Below are positions 10,273 to 62,535 of a DNA stretch of 64,000 nucleotides, in pieces. Location of the stretch: the NCBI RefSeq assembly GCF_000721265.1, contig NZ_JOFZ01000013.1, forward strand, positions 1-64,000, given 5' to 3'. How positions within the stretch are numbered: position 1 is the first letter of the stretch; every line of letters starts with the position of its first letter. The notes under the pieces are model-generated. The model saw only the letters and a list, made by a program, of their open reading frames with translations. It did no database searches and was not told where the DNA came from. Source of the DNA: Streptomyces sp. NRRL F-5126 (GTDB taxonomy: Bacteria; Actinomycetota; Actinomycetes; Streptomycetales; Streptomycetaceae). Made by a program: the position numbers and the translations under genes.

Positions 10273-10344
10273 TGGGCTATGGTGTAATTGGCAGCACGAC
10301 TGATTCTGGTTCAGTTAGTCTAGGTTCGAGTCCTGGTAGCCCAG
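10273..10344 (+). tRNA. tRNA-Gln (anticodon CUG), copy 1
   Basis: 72-nt cloverleaf. Acceptor arms TGGGCTA/TAGCCCA close perfectly with discriminator G; the anticodon loop TTCTGGT reads CAG codons; the T-loop is GGTTCGAGTCC. The anticodon stem is ACTGA/TCAGT, fully Watson-Crick. CCA is not encoded. Confidence 0.97.
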
Positions 10345-10362
10345 CGCAGAGCATCTCTGCAC

Positions 10363-10435
10363 GCCCCCGTTGTGTAGCGGCCTAGCACGCCGCCCTCTCA
10401 AGGCGGTAGCGCCGGTTCGAATCCGGTCGGGGGTA
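10363..10435 (+). tRNA. tRNA-Glu (anticodon CUC), copy 1
   Basis: 73-nt cloverleaf with acceptor GCCCCCG/CGGGGGT (first pair G-U) and discriminator A. The anticodon stem CCGCC/GGCGG holds loop CTCTCAA, anticodon CUC. It lies 18 bp after tRNA-Gln copy 1. Confidence 0.97.
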
Positions 10436-10463
10436 CGGATCTTCCTCACGGGAAGGTCGCTGG

Positions 10464-10536
10464 GGCCCCGTTGTGTAGCGGCCTAGCACGCCGCCCTCTC
10501 AAGGCGGTAGCGCCGGTTCGAATCCGGTCGGGGCTA
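10464..10536 (+). tRNA. tRNA-Glu (anticodon CUC), copy 2
   Basis: Identical to copy 1 in the D, anticodon and T arms. The acceptor differs by one compensated pair (GGCCCCG/CGGGGCT). This shows a mature isodecoder rather than a damaged copy. Confidence 0.96.
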
Positions 10537-10549
10537 CTGGTCTATACCA

Positions 10550-10621
10550 TGGGCTATGGTGTAATTGGCAGCACGAGTGATTCTGGTTCATTTAGTCTAG
10601 GTTCGAGTCCTGGTAGCCCAG
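10550..10621 (+). tRNA. tRNA-Gln (anticodon CUG), copy 2 with a G-U anticodon-stem pair
   Basis: As copy 1 except for two bases in the anticodon stem, giving AGTGA/TCATT: the C-G pair becomes G-U while the fold is kept. The rest of the tRNA, including the loop TTCTGGT, is unchanged. Confidence 0.96.
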
Positions 10622-10635
10622 CTTCGCACGATCTC

Positions 10636-10708
10636 GCCCCCGTTGTGTAGCGGCCTAGCACGCCGCCCTCTCAAGGCGGTAGCGCCGGTTCGAATCCGGT
10701 CGGGGGTA
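10636..10708 (+). tRNA. tRNA-Glu (anticodon CUC), copy 3
   Basis: Identical in sequence to tRNA-Glu copy 1, acceptor GCCCCCG/CGGGGGT. Last gene of the cluster; a strong hairpin follows 12 bp downstream. Confidence 0.97.
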
Positions 10709-10720
10709 CGCGGAAGGCTC

Positions 10721-54639: not shown

Positions 54640-55857
54640 TCAGTGCCGCACCGAGCCGTTGGCCAGCGCTCCCGCCGGCAGACCGAGGAAGGCCGCGGCG
54701 CGGGCGCCGACGTCCGCGAGCGTGGGGGCGTCGGGGAGTGTCTCCGTGCCGTCCGTGCCGGGCGCGTGGATCAGTACGGGGACGAACTCGCGGGTGTGGT
54801 ACGCGTGCCCGATGCTGGGGTCGTTGCCGTGGTCGCCCGTCACGATCAGCCGGTCGTCCGGCCGGTCGAGCAACCCGACCAGCTCGAACAGGCCCGTGTC
54901 GGTCTCCTCCAGGACCCGCCCGTAGCGTGCGGTGTCCTGCTGGTGCCCCGCCAGATCCGACTCCTGCACGTTGGCCACGACCAGCGCGTCGCGCCCCGAC
55001 GCCCGTACGGCGTCCAGCGTGTGCCCGACGACCTCCGCCGTCGCCACGGCGGGACGGCGCTCGGCCGCGTCGCACGCGAGGATGTCCGCCGCCTTGCCGA
55101 CGAGCGTGACCGGGATGCCGGAGCGGGCGGCGAGATCGGGGAGCTGCCGCGTGTGGTCGAGTTCCGCCCCCAGGTGGCGCACCTGGAGGCCGCCGTTGCG
55201 GTAGAAGCCCGTCGCCGGGGTGTCAAGGCCCACCGTGCCGCCGTCACCGTCGCGGACGAACTCCCGCAGCGGACCGTCCGCGTTGCCGCCGACGGCGATC
55301 ACGCGCGCCACCGGGGCGACCGTGCGCACCGTGCGGGCGACAGCGAGCGTCCCGTCGAAGGCCATGTCCGACAGGCGGGCCGACGCGTTCCAGTTGATCC
55401 CCGGGTCGGCCTCCAGGTTGTCGTGCACCAGCACCGCGTCGTCCACGACGAGCAGCGGCCTGCCGTCGAGCAGGGACACCGTGTGCCCCGCGGCCTTGAG
55501 GGCGGCCGTCACGTCCGTCAGGTGCTCAGCGAGCCTGGCGACGGTGACGCGGCTGAAGTCGGCCCCCATCATGGTCTGGTGGCCGGCGAAGGTGTCCGCG
55601 CCCGGATAGCCGAGGGCGGCCCTGCCGACCGACACCGGCAGCGGCGTGGCCGCCGCCAGATCCCGGTGCGGATGGACGACGCCGAGACCCAGCGCCCCGA
55701 GGGCGGGCAGCCTCAGCGGGCGGCCCAGCAGCTCGCGGCCGCCGTCCAGCACATGGCCGCAGGTGTCGGCCGCGGCGTCGCCGGGGCGCAGGGCGCCGGC
55801 GTCCGGCATGGCGCCCACGCCGAAGCCGTCGATGACGACGATGACGGTCCTGCTCAT
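54640..55857 (-). CDS. yhfW: YhfW-like phosphopentomutase-family metalloenzyme
   Basis: A 405-residue member of the alkaline-phosphatase superfamily related to phosphopentomutase, homologous to E. coli YhfW. Metal-binding features: VVIDGFGVGAMPDAG (residues 6-20), the Thr nucleophile region near ADTCGH, NVQESDLAGHQQD near 317 and VTGDHGNDPSIGHAYHTREF near 350. Phosphopentomutases move phosphate between C1 and C5 of (deoxy)ribose; the true substrate of YhfW is not known to me. Last gene of the seven-gene operon; overlaps yhfX by 4 bp (ATGA). Confidence 0.88.
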   Translation of the reverse strand: MSRTVIVVIDGFGVGAMPDAGALRPGDAAADTCGHVLDGGRELLGRPLRLPALGALGLGVVHPHRDLAAATPLPVSVGRAALGYPGADTFAGHQTMMGADFSRVTVARLAEHLTDVTAALKAAGHTVSLLDGRPLLVVDDAVLVHDNLEADPGINWNASARLSDMAFDGTLAVARTVRTVAPVARVIAVGGNADGPLREFVRDGDGGTVGLDTPATGFYRNGGLQVRHLGAELDHTRQLPDLAARSGIPVTLVGKAADILACDAAERRPAVATAEVVGHTLDAVRASGRDALVVANVQESDLAGHQQDTARYGRVLEETDTGLFELVGLLDRPDDRLIVTGDHGNDPSIGHAYHTREFVPVLIHAPGTDGTETLPDAPTLADVGARAAAFLGLPAGALANGSVRH

Positions 55858-57041
55858 GGCGTGCTCCTCCCGGGCCGCTCCAGAAGGCGGCCCCGCGAGT
55901 CGTACAGGCCGGTGAGCCGGGGTGAGCCGGTGGACAGGCCGGAGACGACGGCGACCGTCGAGCGGGTGACGAAGACCTGCGTGCGGAAGGCGAGCACGGC
56001 CGTGTCGCCCGCGCGCGCCGTGCCGGCCCGCTCGGGCGCGCCGAGCAACCGGTAGTAGTCGATGTTCTCCGCGGGGGCCGGCTGGACCGGAAGCCGGACG
56101 CCGCTGCGCGTCAGCAGCGCGTCGCGGATGCCGGCGCGCGCGTAGAACCCGCCGCCGTAGACGGCGGGGCGCCCGTCCGCCAGGGTGTGGGCGACCTCGG
56201 TCACGTACACGTACGCGGGCTGTTCCGGCTGGTGCGCGTCGACGGCGTGCAGCGGGGTGGTGCCCGTGAGGGAGTGCCCCGGCTCGCCGTGCGTCGCCCC
56301 GAGCTCCGCGAGCAGCGGCAGTGTGGCCATCGACGTGGCGCTCGGGGCGCTCAGTTTCAGGTCGCGGTGGCTGCGCGAGTAGAGCAGCGCCTTCGCCTTG
56401 ACGGCCAGCTCGAACGTGGGCGTCGGGGCCGGCACGCCGGTCGCCGGATCGCACAGCACGCACGGGAACGCGGTGACGCCCGCGATCCGGATCCCGGGCA
56501 GCCGTTCGGCCTCGGCGCCGAACGCGTCGAGCTGTTCAAGGGGGACGCCGCCCTCCTGGCCCGGATAGACCGTGCCGGGCGCGCCTTCGAGGCGCACGAG
56601 GACGTCCTGCACCCGGCCGAGGCCCGCGGCGGCGTCCGACACGGCGCGCGCGTTGGCGAGGTCGAAGACCGTCACGGCCTCCGGCTGCCAGCCGAGCATC
56701 TCGGGCAGGTCGCGGTGCGGGATCTGCACCAGGTGGCCGAGGTTGCCTGCCCGGGCGCCGGTGGCATGCAGGAGCCGCGCCTCCGCCGGGTCGATGGCGG
56801 CGAAGGCGGGGATGTGGCGCGAGACGGCGCGGATCAGCTCGGGGTTGCGGCCGAGTTGCTTGACGACGAACCAGAGTGTCAGGCCGAGCCGGTCCGCCTC
56901 GGCCGCGAGCAGCGATGCGTTGGCCTCGACGGCGTCGGCGTCCAGCACGTAGGTGTCGGGCGGGATGGCGCCCGAGCCGTGCAGCGCGGCGGCGGTCTCG
57001 ACGAGGCCGGGGTTGCGGGTGAGGACGGTGTCGAGGAACAC
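55854..57041 (-). CDS. yhfX: YhfX-like PLP enzyme (alanine-racemase fold)
   Basis: A 395-residue fold-III PLP protein resembling alanine racemase and D-threonine aldolase. The N-terminal barrel starts at TYVLDADAVEANASLLAAEA, with the presumed cofactor Lys61 in WFVVKQLGRN. Later PVYGGGFYARAG-like AVYGGGFYARAG near 290 belongs to the C-terminal beta domain. Homologous to E. coli YhfX, whose substrate is not known to me. Overlaps yhfW by 4 bp, and yhfS lies 2 bp upstream, so the three enzymes are made together. Confidence 0.85.
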   Translation of the reverse strand: MFLDTVLTRNPGLVETAAALHGSGAIPPDTYVLDADAVEANASLLAAEADRLGLTLWFVVKQLGRNPELIRAVSRHIPAFAAIDPAEARLLHATGARAGNLGHLVQIPHRDLPEMLGWQPEAVTVFDLANARAVSDAAAGLGRVQDVLVRLEGAPGTVYPGQEGGVPLEQLDAFGAEAERLPGIRIAGVTAFPCVLCDPATGVPAPTPTFELAVKAKALLYSRSHRDLKLSAPSATSMATLPLLAELGATHGEPGHSLTGTTPLHAVDAHQPEQPAYVYVTEVAHTLADGRPAVYGGGFYARAGIRDALLTRSGVRLPVQPAPAENIDYYRLLGAPERAGTARAGDTAVLAFRTQVFVTRSTVAVVSGLSTGSPRLTGLYDSRGRLLERPGRSTP

Positions 57042-57043
57042 GG

Positions 57044-58195
57044 TCAGCCCTTCAGGTCGTGCAGACAGCGGCGAACGATCTCGATCACGAGGTCCGCGCC
57101 GGCCCTCATCGGGTTGATCCGTACGGCCCAGTCGGCGAGTTCGGGAGCGTCGTCGAGGGACGAGCTGGACATGCGGTAGACGAGCGGCGCGATCTCGTAG
57201 CGCGAGTTCGAGCCCACGGGGTAGGGGGCGGCCCCGTGCCGGGCCGCGACGGCGGGCAGTTCACGTGCGACGGGACGGTCGAGGAGGACGATCAGGCAGC
57301 GGTCCTGGACGTTGGCCAGGCGGACGTCAGCGACGCCGGGGACCTCGCCCGCGGCCAGCCGGTCGGCGACCTCGGCGCCGACCTCCGACTGCACGGCCCA
57401 CATGACGGGCACGTGCGTGAGCGCGCGCAGGGCGTCGAGCGCCTGATGGCCCTGTACCTGCCCGCCCCCCGAGTAGTTGTCGGCACGGATCCGGCCGATC
57501 AGCTCGCCCGAACCCACGACGGCGCCGACTCCTTCGGGGCCGTGCAGCTTGAACAGCGAGAAGCAGGACGCCTCCGCTCCCAGCTCGACTCCCGACGCGG
57601 GCACGCGCAGCACGGCGTAATTGTCGTCCACGATCGTCCGCACCCCGGCGGCCGAACAGGCGGCCAGCACCGCCGCCGGATCGTACGCGTCCGTCAGGCG
57701 CTGGCGGCTGTGCTGCACGTAGGCCCAGCGGAACTCGCCGGTCGCCAGGGCGGCTTCGAGCGCCGCCGCGTCGTTGAAGTCCACCTCGACCGTGCGGATG
57801 CCGAGCCCGCGCAGCGTGACGGCGGTGGTGCGGTAGACCGGTGCCCGGTGGATGAGCAGCGGCTCGCCCGGGCCGACGGCGGCCTGCAGTGCGGCCCGGA
57901 TGGCGCCGGTGCCCGCCCCCTGCACGAGCGCCGCGTCCTCGGCGCCGAGGAACTCGGCCAGGACGGCCTCGACACGCGCGGTCGTCCGCGGCCGGCCGAG
58001 TCCCGGCACGACGCCGGCGTCCGCCTCGAACAGCTGCGGCCCCTCGAAGTGGGCCGCTGTCCGCTCCAGCAGCCGGAACTGCGTGCGGAGCGCGTCTTGA
58101 AGCGCCACCGTCGGCAGCGGGTGGGTCTCCGGCAGCCGCACGTGGGTCTCGGGGGTGTCCGGTGCGGGTGGTGTGGGGGGTGTGCCGTGCGGCAT
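57044..58195 (-). CDS. yhfS: YhfS-like PLP-dependent enzyme (aminotransferase fold)
   Basis: A 383-residue fold-I PLP protein homologous to E. coli YhfS. Core markers: ALVQGAGTGAIRAAL near 89-103 (phosphate pocket), IVDDNYAVLRV near 186 with the Asp that contacts the cofactor ring, and the Schiff-base Lys216 in SLFKLHGPEGVGAVVG. C-terminal SNSRYEIAPLVYRMS carries the Arg of this class. Reactions of relatives include lyase, transaminase and desulfurase chemistry; specificity unknown. Start is close behind the php gene (5-bp gap). Confidence 0.86.
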   Translation of the reverse strand: MPHGTPPTPPAPDTPETHVRLPETHPLPTVALQDALRTQFRLLERTAAHFEGPQLFEADAGVVPGLGRPRTTARVEAVLAEFLGAEDAALVQGAGTGAIRAALQAAVGPGEPLLIHRAPVYRTTAVTLRGLGIRTVEVDFNDAAALEAALATGEFRWAYVQHSRQRLTDAYDPAAVLAACSAAGVRTIVDDNYAVLRVPASGVELGAEASCFSLFKLHGPEGVGAVVGSGELIGRIRADNYSGGGQVQGHQALDALRALTHVPVMWAVQSEVGAEVADRLAAGEVPGVADVRLANVQDRCLIVLLDRPVARELPAVAARHGAAPYPVGSNSRYEIAPLVYRMSSSSLDDAPELADWAVRINPMRAGADLVIEIVRRCLHDLKG

Positions 58196-58200
58196 GTCAG

Positions 58201-59145
58201 TCAGATCTCCTCGACGTCTGCGCCGGTGAGGAAGCGCAGGGGGTTGCGGCGCGTGATGAGGTCCACGAGGTCGTCGTCCAGGCCTGCGGCGCGCGCCTTG
58301 GGCAGGAACGAGCCGAACAGGTGCCCGTAGCCCTGCCCGCCCTCGGACGCCAGGTAGCCGTGGCGCGAGATGTCGCAGCTGAGCAGCGCCCGGTCAGCGT
58401 GGCCCGCGTCCAGCAGGTCGAGCAGCAGCCGCAGCCGGGTGTCGTCGCTCTGGTAGCCCGATTTTCCGACGGTGTCGAACGCGACGTACGCGCCCTGCGC
58501 GGCGAGCGCCCGGTGCGTGGCCGGGTCGTCCAGCAGGTCCTGGTGGCCGATCGAGACCCGGTGCGGCGGCAGCCCGGCCGCGGTGAGGATGTCCAATTGG
58601 GCCGGGCCGCCCCGGCCGAGCTGGGCGTGGGTCGCCAGCGACAGGCCGGTGGCTGCGGCCGCCCGTGCGGACGCGGTGAGCACCCGTTTCTCCTCGGGGC
58701 TCGGCACGTCGCCGTGGCTGCCGACCTCGCCGATGACACCGGGCAGGACACCGGTGGTGCCGATGCCGTGCTCGATCTCCTGGACGAGGGTGTCGGTGAG
58801 CCCGGCGGTGCCCGAGGCGCCGACCTCCGCCGGATGGAACGGCTCGTAGTACCAGCCGGTCGCCGAGACGACCGCAACGCCGGAGTCCGCCGAGATCCGC
58901 GCCAGCGTGCGCGGATCTCGGCCCATGCCCCGGCACGTCAGCTCGACGACGGCGCTGAGGCCGAAGTCGGCGCGCAGCGCCGACAGCTCCTCGGCGACGG
59001 CGGGTGCGTGCGCGACCGGGTCGAGCACAGCCGACCGGTCGCCCGTGTGGTCGAGGTCGAGGACCAGGTGCTCATGGGCGAGCAGTGGCCCCCGGATCCC
59101 CGAGACGTCCAGCGGCCCGGCGACGGTGCGCAGATGGTGCTGCAT
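58201..59145 (-). CDS. php: Phosphotriesterase-homology protein (PHP/YhfV)
   Basis: A 314-residue amidohydrolase-superfamily protein homologous to E. coli PHP (YhfV). Metal ligands by eye: H24 and H26 in AHEHLV, Glu140 in GVIGEVGSHG, H173 in ATHAQLGR, H201 in IGHQDLLDD and Asp258 in LLSCDISRHG. True phosphotriesterases use a carbamylated Lys at the bridging position; here it is Glu, as in PHP. Relatives are lactonases or phosphotriesterases; the native substrate is unknown. It lies between the transporter-like yhfT and yhfS. Confidence 0.9.
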   Translation of the reverse strand: MQHHLRTVAGPLDVSGIRGPLLAHEHLVLDLDHTGDRSAVLDPVAHAPAVAEELSALRADFGLSAVVELTCRGMGRDPRTLARISADSGVAVVSATGWYYEPFHPAEVGASGTAGLTDTLVQEIEHGIGTTGVLPGVIGEVGSHGDVPSPEEKRVLTASARAAAATGLSLATHAQLGRGGPAQLDILTAAGLPPHRVSIGHQDLLDDPATHRALAAQGAYVAFDTVGKSGYQSDDTRLRLLLDLLDAGHADRALLSCDISRHGYLASEGGQGYGHLFGSFLPKARAAGLDDDLVDLITRRNPLRFLTGADVEEI

Positions 59146-59195
59146 GGCGCGGGTGCCTTTCCGGGCCGTGGGGCCCTCTCGATTGCGGGGACGGG

Positions 59196-60617
59196 TCAGC
59201 CCTTCACCGGAGTGAACAGATCAAGCCAGTACAGGACGTTGAGGAGGATGCCGCCGACGATGACCGCCGCGGGCGCCGCCGCCATCCGCACCACGGGGCG
59301 GCCCATCGCCTCGTTGACGAGGTAGAGCCCTCCGACGATGAGGATGCCGAGCCCACCGCCCATCACGTTCGCGGCAAGCAGTGAGCCGAAGAGGATGGCC
59401 AGTTGCAGCGTGTCCGTAATGGCGCTGCGCAGGTGCTCGGAGGAGTCGCGGACACTCGGGAGCTTGCCGAGGACCTTGCCGATGGAGGAGAGGCCGAGGA
59501 TCTCCAGGGCCATCACCACGGCGCCGGCCACGGCCGCCAGGACGGGGTTCGGCATCAGGTAGCCGATGGGGTAGACGAGCGTCAGGCCGGCGATCCCGTA
59601 GGTGCCCGATGCCAGCGCCGTCGTCGCGATCAGCGGGATGAACCCGAAGACCCGGTAGAAGTCGACCTGGGCCGCCTCGCTGATGTGTCCCTTGGCGATG
59701 AGGAAGCTGGTGGCCTCGCCGCCGCCGAATATGTGCATCCGCGCGATAAGGCAGACGCCGGCGCCCAGCAGCATGAACAGCGGCAGATGCTTGCGCAGCC
59801 TGGCCGCGCTCGCGCTGAACAGGGACGCCATCGGGTCCTCGAGTACCTCTTCGGGCACGTCCGTGCCGCCGGAGCCCGTCTGCGCGAGTGCGGTGCCGCC
59901 GCCCCCCGATCCGTCCGCCGCGGGGCCGGCGGCCGCTGCTGCCTCCGCCTCAGTGGCGCGGTCGGCCCTGCGCTGCAGCAGGTCCTTGCGTACGGCGAAG
60001 CCGATCAGCATCAGCACGCCCGCCGCCATGGCGAGCGACCCGGCGAAGATGTTCGGCCACAGCTTCATCGTCATGATGACCAGGGCCAGTTCCACGACGC
60101 CCGTGATGGCGCCGCGCGCCTTGCCGAACTGCTTGGCGACCGCGAGCACGGGGAAGAGCGTGAAGAGGAACAGGATCGGCGTGGACATCTGCTGCATCGC
60201 GGTCAGGAAGTCCACGGGCAGCTTGTGGGCCACGTCGTTGGCGCCGTTCAGCCCGAAGACCACCAGCGCGCCCCAGGCGCCGCCGAGCACCACCGCGAGC
60301 CATTTGCGGATCGCGAGGATGCCCAGGATGTCGGTGGGCAGGAAGAGCAGCCACGGGTTGAGCACACCGGACGACAGGGCCATCGGAGCGCCCAGTCCGA
60401 AGATGAACCCCGCCGAGAGCCCGAAGGCCACCGCCGCGGTCGCCGCGCGCGTGGCGCGGCCCTGGATGAACTCCAGCATGAACGGGCGGGTGCCGTCGTT
60501 GAAGACGGCCAGCGCCATGTGCGAGACGAGCGCGGTCAGCGCGGCCAGCACGATGACGATCAGTTTCTGGGTCAGCGAGAAGTCCAGATGGGCGCTCGCT
60601 GCGAGCACTGTGCTCAC
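59196..60617 (-). CDS. yhfT: YhfT-like multi-pass membrane protein
   Basis: A 473-residue integral membrane protein homologous to E. coli YhfT, with about 11-12 hydrophobic segments. Notable stretches are LIVIVLAALTALVSHMALAV near 19, LFLFTLFPVLAVAKQFG near 150 and ALASGTYGIAGLTLVYPIGY near 322. A cytoplasmic-looking loop at about 210-270 is Ala/Gly-rich and absent or shorter in E. coli as I remember it. Probably the substrate transporter of the system; direction and substrate are inferred only. yhfU starts 37 bp upstream. Confidence 0.85.
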   Translation of the reverse strand: MSTVLAASAHLDFSLTQKLIVIVLAALTALVSHMALAVFNDGTRPFMLEFIQGRATRAATAAVAFGLSAGFIFGLGAPMALSSGVLNPWLLFLPTDILGILAIRKWLAVVLGGAWGALVVFGLNGANDVAHKLPVDFLTAMQQMSTPILFLFTLFPVLAVAKQFGKARGAITGVVELALVIMTMKLWPNIFAGSLAMAAGVLMLIGFAVRKDLLQRRADRATEAEAAAAAGPAADGSGGGGTALAQTGSGGTDVPEEVLEDPMASLFSASAARLRKHLPLFMLLGAGVCLIARMHIFGGGEATSFLIAKGHISEAAQVDFYRVFGFIPLIATTALASGTYGIAGLTLVYPIGYLMPNPVLAAVAGAVVMALEILGLSSIGKVLGKLPSVRDSSEHLRSAITDTLQLAILFGSLLAANVMGGGLGILIVGGLYLVNEAMGRPVVRMAAAPAAVIVGGILLNVLYWLDLFTPVKG

Positions 60618-60654
60618 GGGGTCACTCCTTTGTGCCCGGTCGTGTCCTGGGCGG

Positions 60655-61011
60655 TCAGCCCCGCGCCGCGATGGCGCGGGCCATGACCGGGGCGATGACG
60701 TCGATCTGGTCGATGGCGAAGCCGAAGACGATCTTGCCTTCGGCGAGCAGCGCGGAGACCTCCTCCTCGGTCGGCACGGAGCGGCCGAACGTGTGGCACT
60801 TCACTGCCCCGACCAGGCCGACGAGGACGCCGAGCGAGGCGCCCGCGCCGGTGTGGCACGTGCCGAGGTAGTAGTCGGCCTGCCGGCCGCGCAGCTTCAT
60901 CGCGGCATCCATGTCGCTGGAGACCGTGACGGTCAGGGTGTCGATGCCGAGGTCCGAGATGGTCTTCGCGACCTCGGTCTTGCCGACGCCGCCTGTGAGG
61001 ATCTTCGTCAT
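60655..61011 (-). CDS. yhfU: YhfU-like DUF2620 protein
   Basis: A 118-residue soluble alpha/beta protein homologous to E. coli YhfU. It begins MTKILTGGVGKTEVAKTISD and contains YLGTCHTGAGASLGVLVG near 47-64 with a Cys-His pair. The beta-alpha start and the Cys recall the fold of PTS IIB proteins, but that is only a resemblance by eye. Next to the membrane protein YhfT, so it may be its soluble partner. ATG 61011 with GAAGGAATCC upstream. Confidence 0.85.
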   Translation of the reverse strand: MTKILTGGVGKTEVAKTISDLGIDTLTVTVSSDMDAAMKLRGRQADYYLGTCHTGAGASLGVLVGLVGAVKCHTFGRSVPTEEEVSALLAEGKIVFGFAIDQIDVIAPVMARAIAARG

Positions 61012-61076
61012 GGCTGGATTCCTTCTCTGGTCGCGCGGGTGGTCGGGAACGGGACGGTCGGGCTCCCCCGGGAGGA

Positions 61077-61451
61077 TCAGGCGGGGGAGTGCTGGGCGAG
61101 CACCGCCAGATGCAGCGCGAGGAAGTTGACCTCGGAGTCGGGCAGGGCCGCGCCGAGCTCGCGCTCGGCGCGGCCGGCGACCTCCCGGGCTCTGGCCACG
61201 GCCTCGGGGTGCCCGGCGAGCTCGGCGGCGACCTGGTCGTCGGTGGTGAAGGCGGAGATCGGCTCGCCGTCCAGCAGGCGGGTGAGCGCCATCATCAGAT
61301 GGCTTGTGAGCATGCCCGCCGTGTCCTCGGTGACGGTGTGCCCCTGCTCGGACAGGGCCGCGAGTTCGTCCGAGACGAAAGCGGCCACCTCGGGACGCAC
61401 CTGTCCGCTCTCGCGGAACAGCTTGATGCGGAGGGCGAGCTGGTCGTCCAT
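61077..61451 (-). CDS. yhfY: YhfY-like single PRD-domain protein
   Basis: A 124-residue protein consisting of one PTS-regulation domain: LTSHLMMALTRLLDGEPIS near 48-66 with the first conserved His and EVNFLALHLAVLAQHS near 106-121 with the second. There is no RNA- or DNA-binding domain, so it is not an antiterminator by itself. Homologous to E. coli YhfY. First gene of the seven-gene operon; strong ribosome-binding site GGAGGAGG and an operator-like promoter at 61475-61500. Confidence 0.83.
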   Translation of the reverse strand: MDDQLALRIKLFRESGQVRPEVAAFVSDELAALSEQGHTVTEDTAGMLTSHLMMALTRLLDGEPISAFTTDDQVAAELAGHPEAVARAREVAGRAERELGAALPDSEVNFLALHLAVLAQHSPA

Positions 61452-61473
61452 GGGGTTCCTCCTCCAACAATAA

Positions 61474-61500
61474 TCAGTAACCAGTATTTTGTATTCTGAC
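61474..61500 (-). promoter_or_regulatory. Operon promoter with YhfZ-type operator
   Basis: Core CAGTAT-N5-ATTCTG (61482-61498) with conserved flanks (CAGTAAC before, AC after), sharing 19 of 26 bases with the site before yhfZ. Read on the minus strand it holds a -10-like TACTGA (61479-61474) 17 bp after AGGTCA. Suggests repression of the operon by YhfZ. Inferred from the duplicated sequence. Confidence 0.7.
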
Positions 61501-61561
61501 CTTACGGTCCGCCCGGCCGCCCGTGGGACCGAGCAGCCCGCGCGGGTGCGGCACCCGCCCG

Positions 61562-62500
61562 TCAGTACCAGGGTGCCCGTTCGCCGTTGAGCACTTCGGT
61601 CTGGCAGTTGGTGATCAGCGCGAGGTCGAGGGCCTCCCGCACCGCGGACATCGCCTTCGCCTCGTCGGTCCTTCCTATGAGCGCGGCGCTGGAGTTGCGC
61701 AGCGCGAGGTCGCGCGTGACCTCGTCGCCGAGCGGCAGTACATCCACCCCCGGGCCGAGCCTGTCCAGCGCCTCGTCCAGATTCCACACCGTGGCGTCGG
61801 CCCCGCCGTGCTGGAACAACTCGCCCAGCTGCATGTAAGAAGCCTCGACCCAGGTGATGTCGGCACGGTCGCCGAACACCCGCTCGGCCAGCAGGCGCTG
61901 GTCCTCCGACGCGTGGTCGACGGCCACTCTGAGTCCTGACATATCGGCATCGAGACCGTGACGCAGCAGCAGGCCGTGCGCCCCGACGTACGTGGCGGGC
62001 CCCAGGTCGGCGACCAGCTCCACCGGGTGCTCCTCGACCAGCCGGTCCGCTGCGAACCGGGACAGCACCACCAGGTCGACCTTGCCGTCGAGCAGCGCGG
62101 TGGTCCGCGCCCCCGCGCCTCGCATGAAGGTGATCGCGAACGGTGCGCCGGCCTCCTCGAAGGCGCTGCGCAGCCCGGTCGCGAGCCCCTCGTAGCGGCG
62201 CGAGTAGGGCAGCGGCATCGCGGCGAGCAGGGTGCCGAGACCGGACAGGCGCCACAGTATCGACCTGTCCGAGCGCACGAGGAACGTGCCCAGGTGGCCC
62301 CGGGCCGTGGTCTCGATGGCCTCGGCGTGTTCCAGCAGCTGCAACGCGGCCTGCACGGTCCCGTTTCCCACGCCCAGTTCCTCGGCGAAATCGCGCACGC
62401 GCGGCAGCCTCGTGTCCGGCTCGTGGTTCAGCAGGAGAACCGCGAGCCGGCGCGCAGCGAGGCCGTTGCGCGTCAGGAAACGCTCGTCAAGTCCGGTCAC
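61562..62500 (-). CDS. yhfZ: YhfZ-like GntR-type regulator
   Basis: A 312-residue regulator homologous to E. coli YhfZ. Winged helix at residues 12-72 (LLLNHEPDTRLPRVRDFAEE, LGVGNGTVQAALQLLEHAEA); the remainder resembles a periplasmic-binding-protein type effector domain (VDLVVLSRFAADRL near 140, LRVAVDHASEDQRLLAERVF near 191). It presumably binds the inducer and controls the operon and itself. GTG 62500 sits about where transcription should start (see promoter), with no ribosome-binding site, so the mRNA is probably leaderless. Confidence 0.87.
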   Translation of the reverse strand: MTGLDERFLTRNGLAARRLAVLLLNHEPDTRLPRVRDFAEELGVGNGTVQAALQLLEHAEAIETTARGHLGTFLVRSDRSILWRLSGLGTLLAAMPLPYSRRYEGLATGLRSAFEEAGAPFAITFMRGAGARTTALLDGKVDLVVLSRFAADRLVEEHPVELVADLGPATYVGAHGLLLRHGLDADMSGLRVAVDHASEDQRLLAERVFGDRADITWVEASYMQLGELFQHGGADATVWNLDEALDRLGPGVDVLPLGDEVTRDLALRNSSAALIGRTDEAKAMSAVREALDLALITNCQTEVLNGERAPWY

Positions 62501-62506
62501 ACGGCA

Positions 62507-62535
62507 ACAGTAACCAGAATCCCGGATACTGACAA
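62507..62535 (-). promoter_or_regulatory. yhfZ promoter with overlapping operator
   Basis: On the minus strand TTGTCA (62535-62530), 17-nt spacer, TACTGT (62512-62507). The operator core CAGAAT-N5-ATACTG (62515-62531) fills the spacer, so a bound regulator would block RNA polymerase. Predicted start falls on or next to GTG 62500. Confidence 0.75.

Follow-up and report, generated by a model that had tools for sequence, protein, structure and literature searches.

Three described gene systems come close to the one considered here. The yhfS-yhfZ genes of Escherichia coli K-12 (b3376-b3383) comprise eight families, contiguous and on one strand. In the D-glucosaminate system DgaABCDEF of Salmonella, an amino-sugar-type substrate enters as a 6-phosphate and is then handled by a pyridoxal phosphate (PLP) enzyme; the substrate of DgaE is the 6-phosphate made by the phosphotransferase system (PTS) permease DgaABCD (PMC9529869). 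Operons of the EF_0829-EF_0839 type, finally, combine a PTS-regulation domain (PRD; TIGR03582), an SFCGS protein (TIGR03577), the DUF4310-4312 proteins and DgaE/DgaF. All eight yhf families are also found in a stretch of 64,000 nucleotides from Streptomyces sp. NRRL F-5126 (contig NZ_JOFZ01000013.1, positions 1 to 64,000; the whole stretch is here called the window), where they lie adjacent on the minus strand at 54640-62500, with yhfZ followed by Y-U-T-V-S-X-W, seven genes that by their spacing are one operon. An earlier note, made from the sequence alone, had described this set, and Pfam and NCBIfam profile searches agree with it. The yhf set is already annotated in many Streptomyces, and the cluster in the window is a further instance of an uncharacterised kind. 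What the earlier note missed is a link to the PTS, amidase-like and NagB neighbours, and likely operators. Our tentative reading, to which we give somewhat less than an even chance, is that the cluster imports an amide-linked amino-sugar compound by a PTS-dependent route and breaks it down, where we infer the PTS phosphotransfer, the substrate class, the order of the steps and the action of YhfZ.

The order in the window differs from that of E. coli MG1655, which is confirmed as Z-Y-X-W-V-U-T-S, and the T and U proteins of the two clusters are 44% and 32% identical. Neighbourhoods were taken from the best 80 of 338 YhfT loci. In all, 97 yhf clusters were compared for order, and the 87 that are anchored on T and clear of contig ends were used for gene counts, with matches of E above 1e-6 dropped except for the families labelled Y and A, adjacent matches to the same family merged, and a three-copy Bacillus locus (L073) treated as one cluster. 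U and X occur in all 87 clusters, Y in 85, Z in 83, V in 82, W in 81 and S in only 54, S being absent from the sampled Vibrionaceae and Yersinia clusters. The earlier claim that the set is kept while its order is shuffled thus holds in so far as the families recur together in varied orders, but the set is not a fixed eight. Nor is the order notable for a streptomycete: it occurs exactly in 16 of the 97 clusters, Bacillota included, which rules it out as a peculiarity of streptomycetes, and in six more with an amidase-like gene inserted; among the sampled clusters, the E. coli order is found only in Enterobacterales.

The window's order is found, too, on a plasmid of Cetobacterium somerae (L010), apart from an additional gene that separates T from V and is annotated as amidase family protein. 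Among plasmids, searched with YhfS only, nine records match; the match spans 80% of the query or more in four, namely a Cetobacterium plasmid and three E. coli records of chromosome size. A search of viral contigs with YhfT gave no match. In Bacillus sp. T33-2 (L073, 4805-21358) three copies lie in a row, Y-U-T, Z-Y-U-T-V-S-X-W-NagB and Z-Y-U-T-S, and the great divergence of their T proteins suggests that the copies serve different substrates. An alternative Bacillus cluster (L126 and L128) has a divergent Z together with T-U-X, a SIS protein, a ribulose-phosphate epimerase, Y, V, W and a HAD hydrolase, and has no S; its accessory genes were scanned in L128 only.

The link to the PTS is carried in the first place by YhfY (61077-61454, minus strand), a stand-alone PRD (PF00874, 30.1 bits) with no further Pfam domain above cut-off. 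Conservation was read, here and below, from alignments of length-filtered model matches together with the reading frame of the window (75 sequences from 88 model matches for Y, 79 from 89 for V, 50 from 58 for S, 73 from 81 for X and 52 from 76 for W). These sets include near-identical sequences and the window's own locus (L001), and their reading frames start at the first start codon after a stop, a rule that often places the start too far upstream; Y and W of the window are over-extended in the alignments. His52 and Arg59 of YhfY are present in 75 of 75 sequences, and the second PRD histidine position holds a His in only 16 of them. Judged by conservation alone, a phosphorylatable residue is kept in each cytosolic partner, His52 in YhfY and an invariant Cys52 in YhfU. 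The gene for Enzyme I lies directly after W in one cluster (L024) and that for HPr in two (L068 and L153), the first-start reading frames overlapping W by 13 to 43 bases. These three clusters are to be compared with about 0.05 expected by chance, an estimate made by hand from 65 Enzyme I and 145 HPr matches in 44 genomes, with 4,000 genes per genome assumed. Among the 44 genomes searched, 42 bear yhf genes (one of them, G654, only S-X-W, at a contig end); all 42 match HPr, and 41 match the N-terminal domain of Enzyme I. In the exception (G182) the model of the N-terminal domain seems to have missed an Enzyme I, because an Enzyme I-type C-terminal domain is present, and a genome that has X and in which no T was seen (G554) is without matches to either the Enzyme I N-terminal domain or HPr. 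This co-occurrence is weak evidence, because the PTS is common in these taxa.

YhfU (60655-61011, minus strand) is a DUF2620 protein and a candidate IIB-like phosphocarrier. Its fold matches RpiB best by a clear margin, and Cys52 aligns with Cys66 of E. coli RpiB. What sets it apart from RpiB and LacAB, which it resembles in fold and in the position of the conserved cysteine, is that it has no counterpart of the N-terminal Asp-His motif (CDH, residues 8-10, in E. coli RpiB), the ring-opening motif of that enzyme, and that it matches no NCBIfam model, those of RpiB and SFCGS included. A profile-profile comparison relates it to SFCGS (hhalign, 112 columns, E 2e-4; four controls 0.037-0.08). In five SFCGS loci a PRD is found alongside, stand-alone or fused, and four of the five also have DgaE- and DgaF-type genes. 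Operons of this type thus resemble the yhf clusters in bringing together a PRD, an RpiB-like cysteine protein and polytopic membrane proteins, with a PLP enzyme and an amidohydrolase too in four of the five; they differ in that the membrane proteins have no sequence similarity to YhfT and that DgaE/F replace V, S, X and W. As to fusion, both PRD and SFCGS domains are found in 9 of 50 among the clusters listed, that of L173 itself included; in L173 (9134-9883) the two share one reading frame, and other homologues among those listed are DUF4312-SFCGS fusions. Among the genes scanned in L171 there is no sugar kinase.

YhfT (59196-60617, minus strand; PF10797, 503.5 bits) is a multi-spanning membrane protein and a candidate permease. 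Its predicted structure, with a predicted local distance difference test (pLDDT) score of 86.7, has no convincing fold match in the PDB and no IIC among the matches listed, and neither U nor T matches the known IIA, IIB or IIC families (above cut-off, Pfam with E up to 1 has DUF2620 and YhfT only; NCBIfam at E up to 0.1 gives none). The idea that YhfT is a fused DUF4311 and DUF4310 is unsupported (hhalign E 0.22 and 0.34). A divergent YhfT, in a clade of its own, is found in some Streptomyces (L015, 7681-9060; L009, 1441-2796), and in L015 it is a second copy, placed between Z and Y.

These properties of Y, U and T also allow a scheme with no phosphotransfer via YhfU, in which YhfT is an ordinary secondary carrier, YhfU, as an RpiB-type isomerase or its non-catalytic relative, acts on an intermediate of the pathway, and YhfY does no more than sense the state of the PTS for YhfZ or catabolite control. 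With the best fold of YhfU being RpiB, its cysteine at the RpiB position, YhfT like no solved IIC among the matches listed, and PRDs being classically regulatory, this is a real possibility, though short of probable. It leaves the lost Asp-His motif to be explained, as well as the adjacency of U and T in 84 of the 87 clusters and the four loci where the SFCGS relative stands beside DgaE/DgaF-type genes, for the known Dga pathway requires its substrate to be phosphorylated and includes no isomerisation. If phosphotransfer does run through YhfU, Y-U-T and PRD-SFCGS-DUF4310/4311 would both belong, as separate branches, to a class of PTS permease undescribed in the literature searched, where a IIA-like PRD passes phosphate to a IIB-like protein on the RpiB fold, with phospho-cysteine at the position of RpiB Cys66, and where the membrane subunits are unlike known IICs in fold. 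On this view the E. coli yhf genes would encode a PTS branch, so far hidden, whose substrate is an amide-linked amino sugar. This wider proposal we consider rather unlikely. The Dga system of Salmonella has a mannose-family PTS permease instead of Y-U-T.

The earlier note had assigned import and a series of enzyme classes to the cluster, and at the family level the assignments stand. YhfV (58201-59145, minus strand) is a phosphotriesterase-like metallohydrolase (PF02126), in which H24, H26, E140, H173, H201 and D258, which we take to be metal ligands, are invariant in 79 aligned sequences; it meets the Pfam PTE model and falls below NCBIfam NF007373 (PRK09875, phosphotriesterase-related protein; 202 bits vs 486). 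YhfS (57044-58195, minus strand) is a fold-type I PLP enzyme (PF22475; solved relative 4j8l) with K216 in at least 95% of 50 aligned sequences, and YhfX (55854-57041, minus strand) an alanine-racemase-like PLP enzyme of fold-type III (PF21279 and PF01168; solved relative 4kbx) with K61 invariant in 73. YhfW (54640-55857, minus strand) is phosphopentomutase-like and of the alkaline phosphatase superfamily; Asp88 and His93 are found in 52 of 52 sequences, and the position that, by DeoB, is presumably the nucleophile holds Thr in 47 and Ser in 5. The window proteins retain these active-site residues of their relatives (the six of V; Asp88, Thr89 and His93 of W; Lys61 of X; Lys216 of S; and His52 of Y). 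Structures of four Yhf proteins have been solved, and the names they carry leave the function unstated (YhfS, YhfX, YhfZ and phosphotriesterase homology protein).

Where the earlier assignment goes too far is in the phosphomutase step: YhfW passes its own family model only (NF009049, above cut-off) and fails the DeoB equivalog models (TIGR01696, 115.6 vs 341.2; PRK05362, 132.8 vs 256), and 'phosphomutase' is therefore a family-level guess. In the literature, yhfW has been named as a gap-filling candidate, a weak one (E 0.47; PMC3423039), and a yhfW mutant was dropped from a metabolome set (PMC5293155). A true phosphopentomutase, with YhfU as a pentose-phosphate isomerase, would imply a pentose- or nucleoside-like substrate. 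The family likeness of YhfW to DeoB and the RpiB fold of YhfU fit this, as does a ribulose-phosphate 3-epimerase above cut-off in L128, but it is made improbable by the failed DeoB models, by the lack of a nucleoside phosphorylase among the accessory genes scanned, and by neighbouring NagB genes above the equivalog cut-off, which point to glucosamine-6-phosphate instead.

NagB is the glucosamine-6-phosphate deaminase, and its gene adjoins W or X in eight clusters (L018, L025, L069, L073, L078, L079, L080 and L148); two of these were scored against NCBIfam, and both passed the NagB equivalog (329.9 in L080 and 307.3 in L148 vs 236.9). The Bacillus cluster L128, whose layout recurs in L126, has a GlmS/GlmD-like SIS protein, below all cut-offs, besides the epimerase and the HAD hydrolase. 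As an FrlB-type deglycase this SIS protein was rejected, its best models being GlmS and GlmD. An amidase-like gene, for which the public record names the amidase family, is present in 11 of the 87 clusters. Outside yhf clusters YhfX stands beside genes for sugar-type ATP-binding cassette (ABC) importers (L127, L129, L131, L132, L159 and L160), in company with an amidase and ROK (L127), a NagK-like kinase and ROK (L129), an M20 deacylase and ROK (L131), a permease (L132), a NagK-like kinase (L159), or PfkB and an M20 deacylase (L160), the NagK-like matches being below cut-off; it is as if, at these loci, importer and kinase replaced the Y-U-T module. PTER, a member of the wider family of YhfV, is an N-acetyltaurine hydrolase and cleaves a small amide (PMC11374699). 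Taken together, the NagB and SIS genes, the amidase-like genes, the sugar importer, kinase and deacylase genes next to YhfX and the amide hydrolysis by PTER point to an amide-linked amino-sugar compound whose breakdown would end at glucosamine-6-phosphate. A few lineages have phosphatase-type genes, from four families that are unrelated to one another (PAP2, acid phosphatase B, tyrosine phosphatase 3 and 2-phosphosulfolactate phosphatase), and in L154 (2560-3570) an APH-family phosphotransferase gene, the sole small-molecule kinase among the cluster-adjacent genes scanned, lies 10 bases upstream of Z.

The same neighbours can be ordered around the amino-acid part of the substrate: what the system gains would be D-amino acids, or the nitrogen of modified amino acids, with the sugar genes as merely incidental neighbours. 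Two PLP enzymes, the amidase-like protein and the M20 deacylases of ArgE/DapE type beside X at non-yhf loci are in line with this. We nevertheless regard it as unlikely, for X at those loci also has sugar-type importer, ROK, NagK-like and PfkB genes at its side, and NagB recurs beside the clusters, where a SIS protein is also present.

In the PTS-dependent amino-sugar reading, then, YhfT would most likely be the permease. YhfY would be phosphorylated on His52 from HPr and would pass the phosphate to YhfU or report the state of the PTS, and YhfU would act as IIB-like phosphocarrier through Cys52. The amide would be hydrolysed by YhfV, together with the extra amidase-like protein where present, and the released amino-acid part processed by YhfX and, where present, YhfS. 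YhfW would rearrange the amino-sugar phosphate towards glucosamine-6-phosphate, and NagB would perform the last step; its gene is a neighbour of the cluster in some bacteria, and others presumably encode it at a separate locus. YhfZ would repress both transcription units through 17-bp palindromes.

Several results weigh against this reading; they concern L172, the DgaE model, the amidase-like gene and the flanks of L016 and L133. The amidase-like gene scores 21.3 with Pfam Amidase, below the cut-off of 27. Furthermore, the flank of ffh, a methyltransferase and proS, which the window has in common with four of seven other Streptomyces loci (L011, L012, L014 and L015), is represented in a fifth, on a short contig (L013), by the methyltransferase only, and in L016 and L133 none of the three genes lies beside the cluster, for which reason the cluster there seems to have another location. 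As these results touch neither the PTS link nor the NagB neighbours, they leave our estimate unchanged. In Streptomycetaceae the yhf set is sporadic, being found in 8 of 200 genomes, that of the window among them. Elsewhere in the window, at 10273-10709, there is an array of five tRNA genes, Gln-Glu-Glu-Gln-Glu.

YhfZ (61562-62500, minus strand) has a GntR-type helix-turn-helix and a YhfZ_C ligand-binding-like domain (NF041241, 342.7 bits vs a cut-off of 260; PF14503; solved relative 2ozz), and is a putative repressor. Upstream of Z lies the 17-bp palindrome CAGAAT-CCCGG-ATACTG (62515-62531) and upstream of the Y-W operon the palindrome CAGTAT-TTTGT-ATTCTG (61482-61498), both candidate YhfZ operators. 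The pattern CAGWAT-N5-ATWCTG, with up to one mismatch allowed, matches the window exactly twice, before Z and before Y, vs 0.01 expected, and genome-wide there is one further site (G000:C4:286161-286177), with a single mismatch. In a survey of 12 Streptomyces entries from 11 genomes (L005 and L133 share one), the palindrome is found near Z or Y in nine genomes, the window's included, with 0-2 mismatches, the mismatched versions being counted without a chance control; in L006 and L007 it is not found near Z or Y at the same tolerance. YhfZ is, we infer, the obvious candidate to bind both palindromes. Boxes read by eye place the one at 62515-62531 across the 3' end of TTGTCA, a -35-like box, and across the spacer that leads to TACTGT. 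The GTG start of Z lies only 4 bases past this TACTGT -10-like box (62480-62531), and the Z transcript may for this reason be leaderless.

Literature searches on the yhf names, DUF2620, SFCGS and DUF4310-4312, limited to openly licensed papers, so that subscription work could be missed, found no functional study, in agreement with the earlier statement that no function is established for the system. In two further papers, gene lists of a Lacticaseibacillus rhamnosus clade include DUF2620, PRD and YhfX genes (PMC7513527), and dgaE and dgaF appear only as listed duplicates (PMC7396535).

Among the uncharacterised gene sets of E. coli K-12, the yhf operon is a large one. In place of a plain 'unknown', the comparison offers two questions for direct test: whether phosphate derived from phosphoenolpyruvate arrives at YhfY and YhfU, and whether glucosamine-6-phosphate is the point where YhfW and NagB meet. 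Phosphotransfer, if true, would mean a new PTS class, with a PRD as carrier instead of regulator only, and would bear also on the likewise unexplained EF_0830-0833 proteins. The worth of the analysis is a testable reading of the yhf cluster as a PTS-linked, perhaps truly PTS-type, permease that feeds amino-sugar catabolism.

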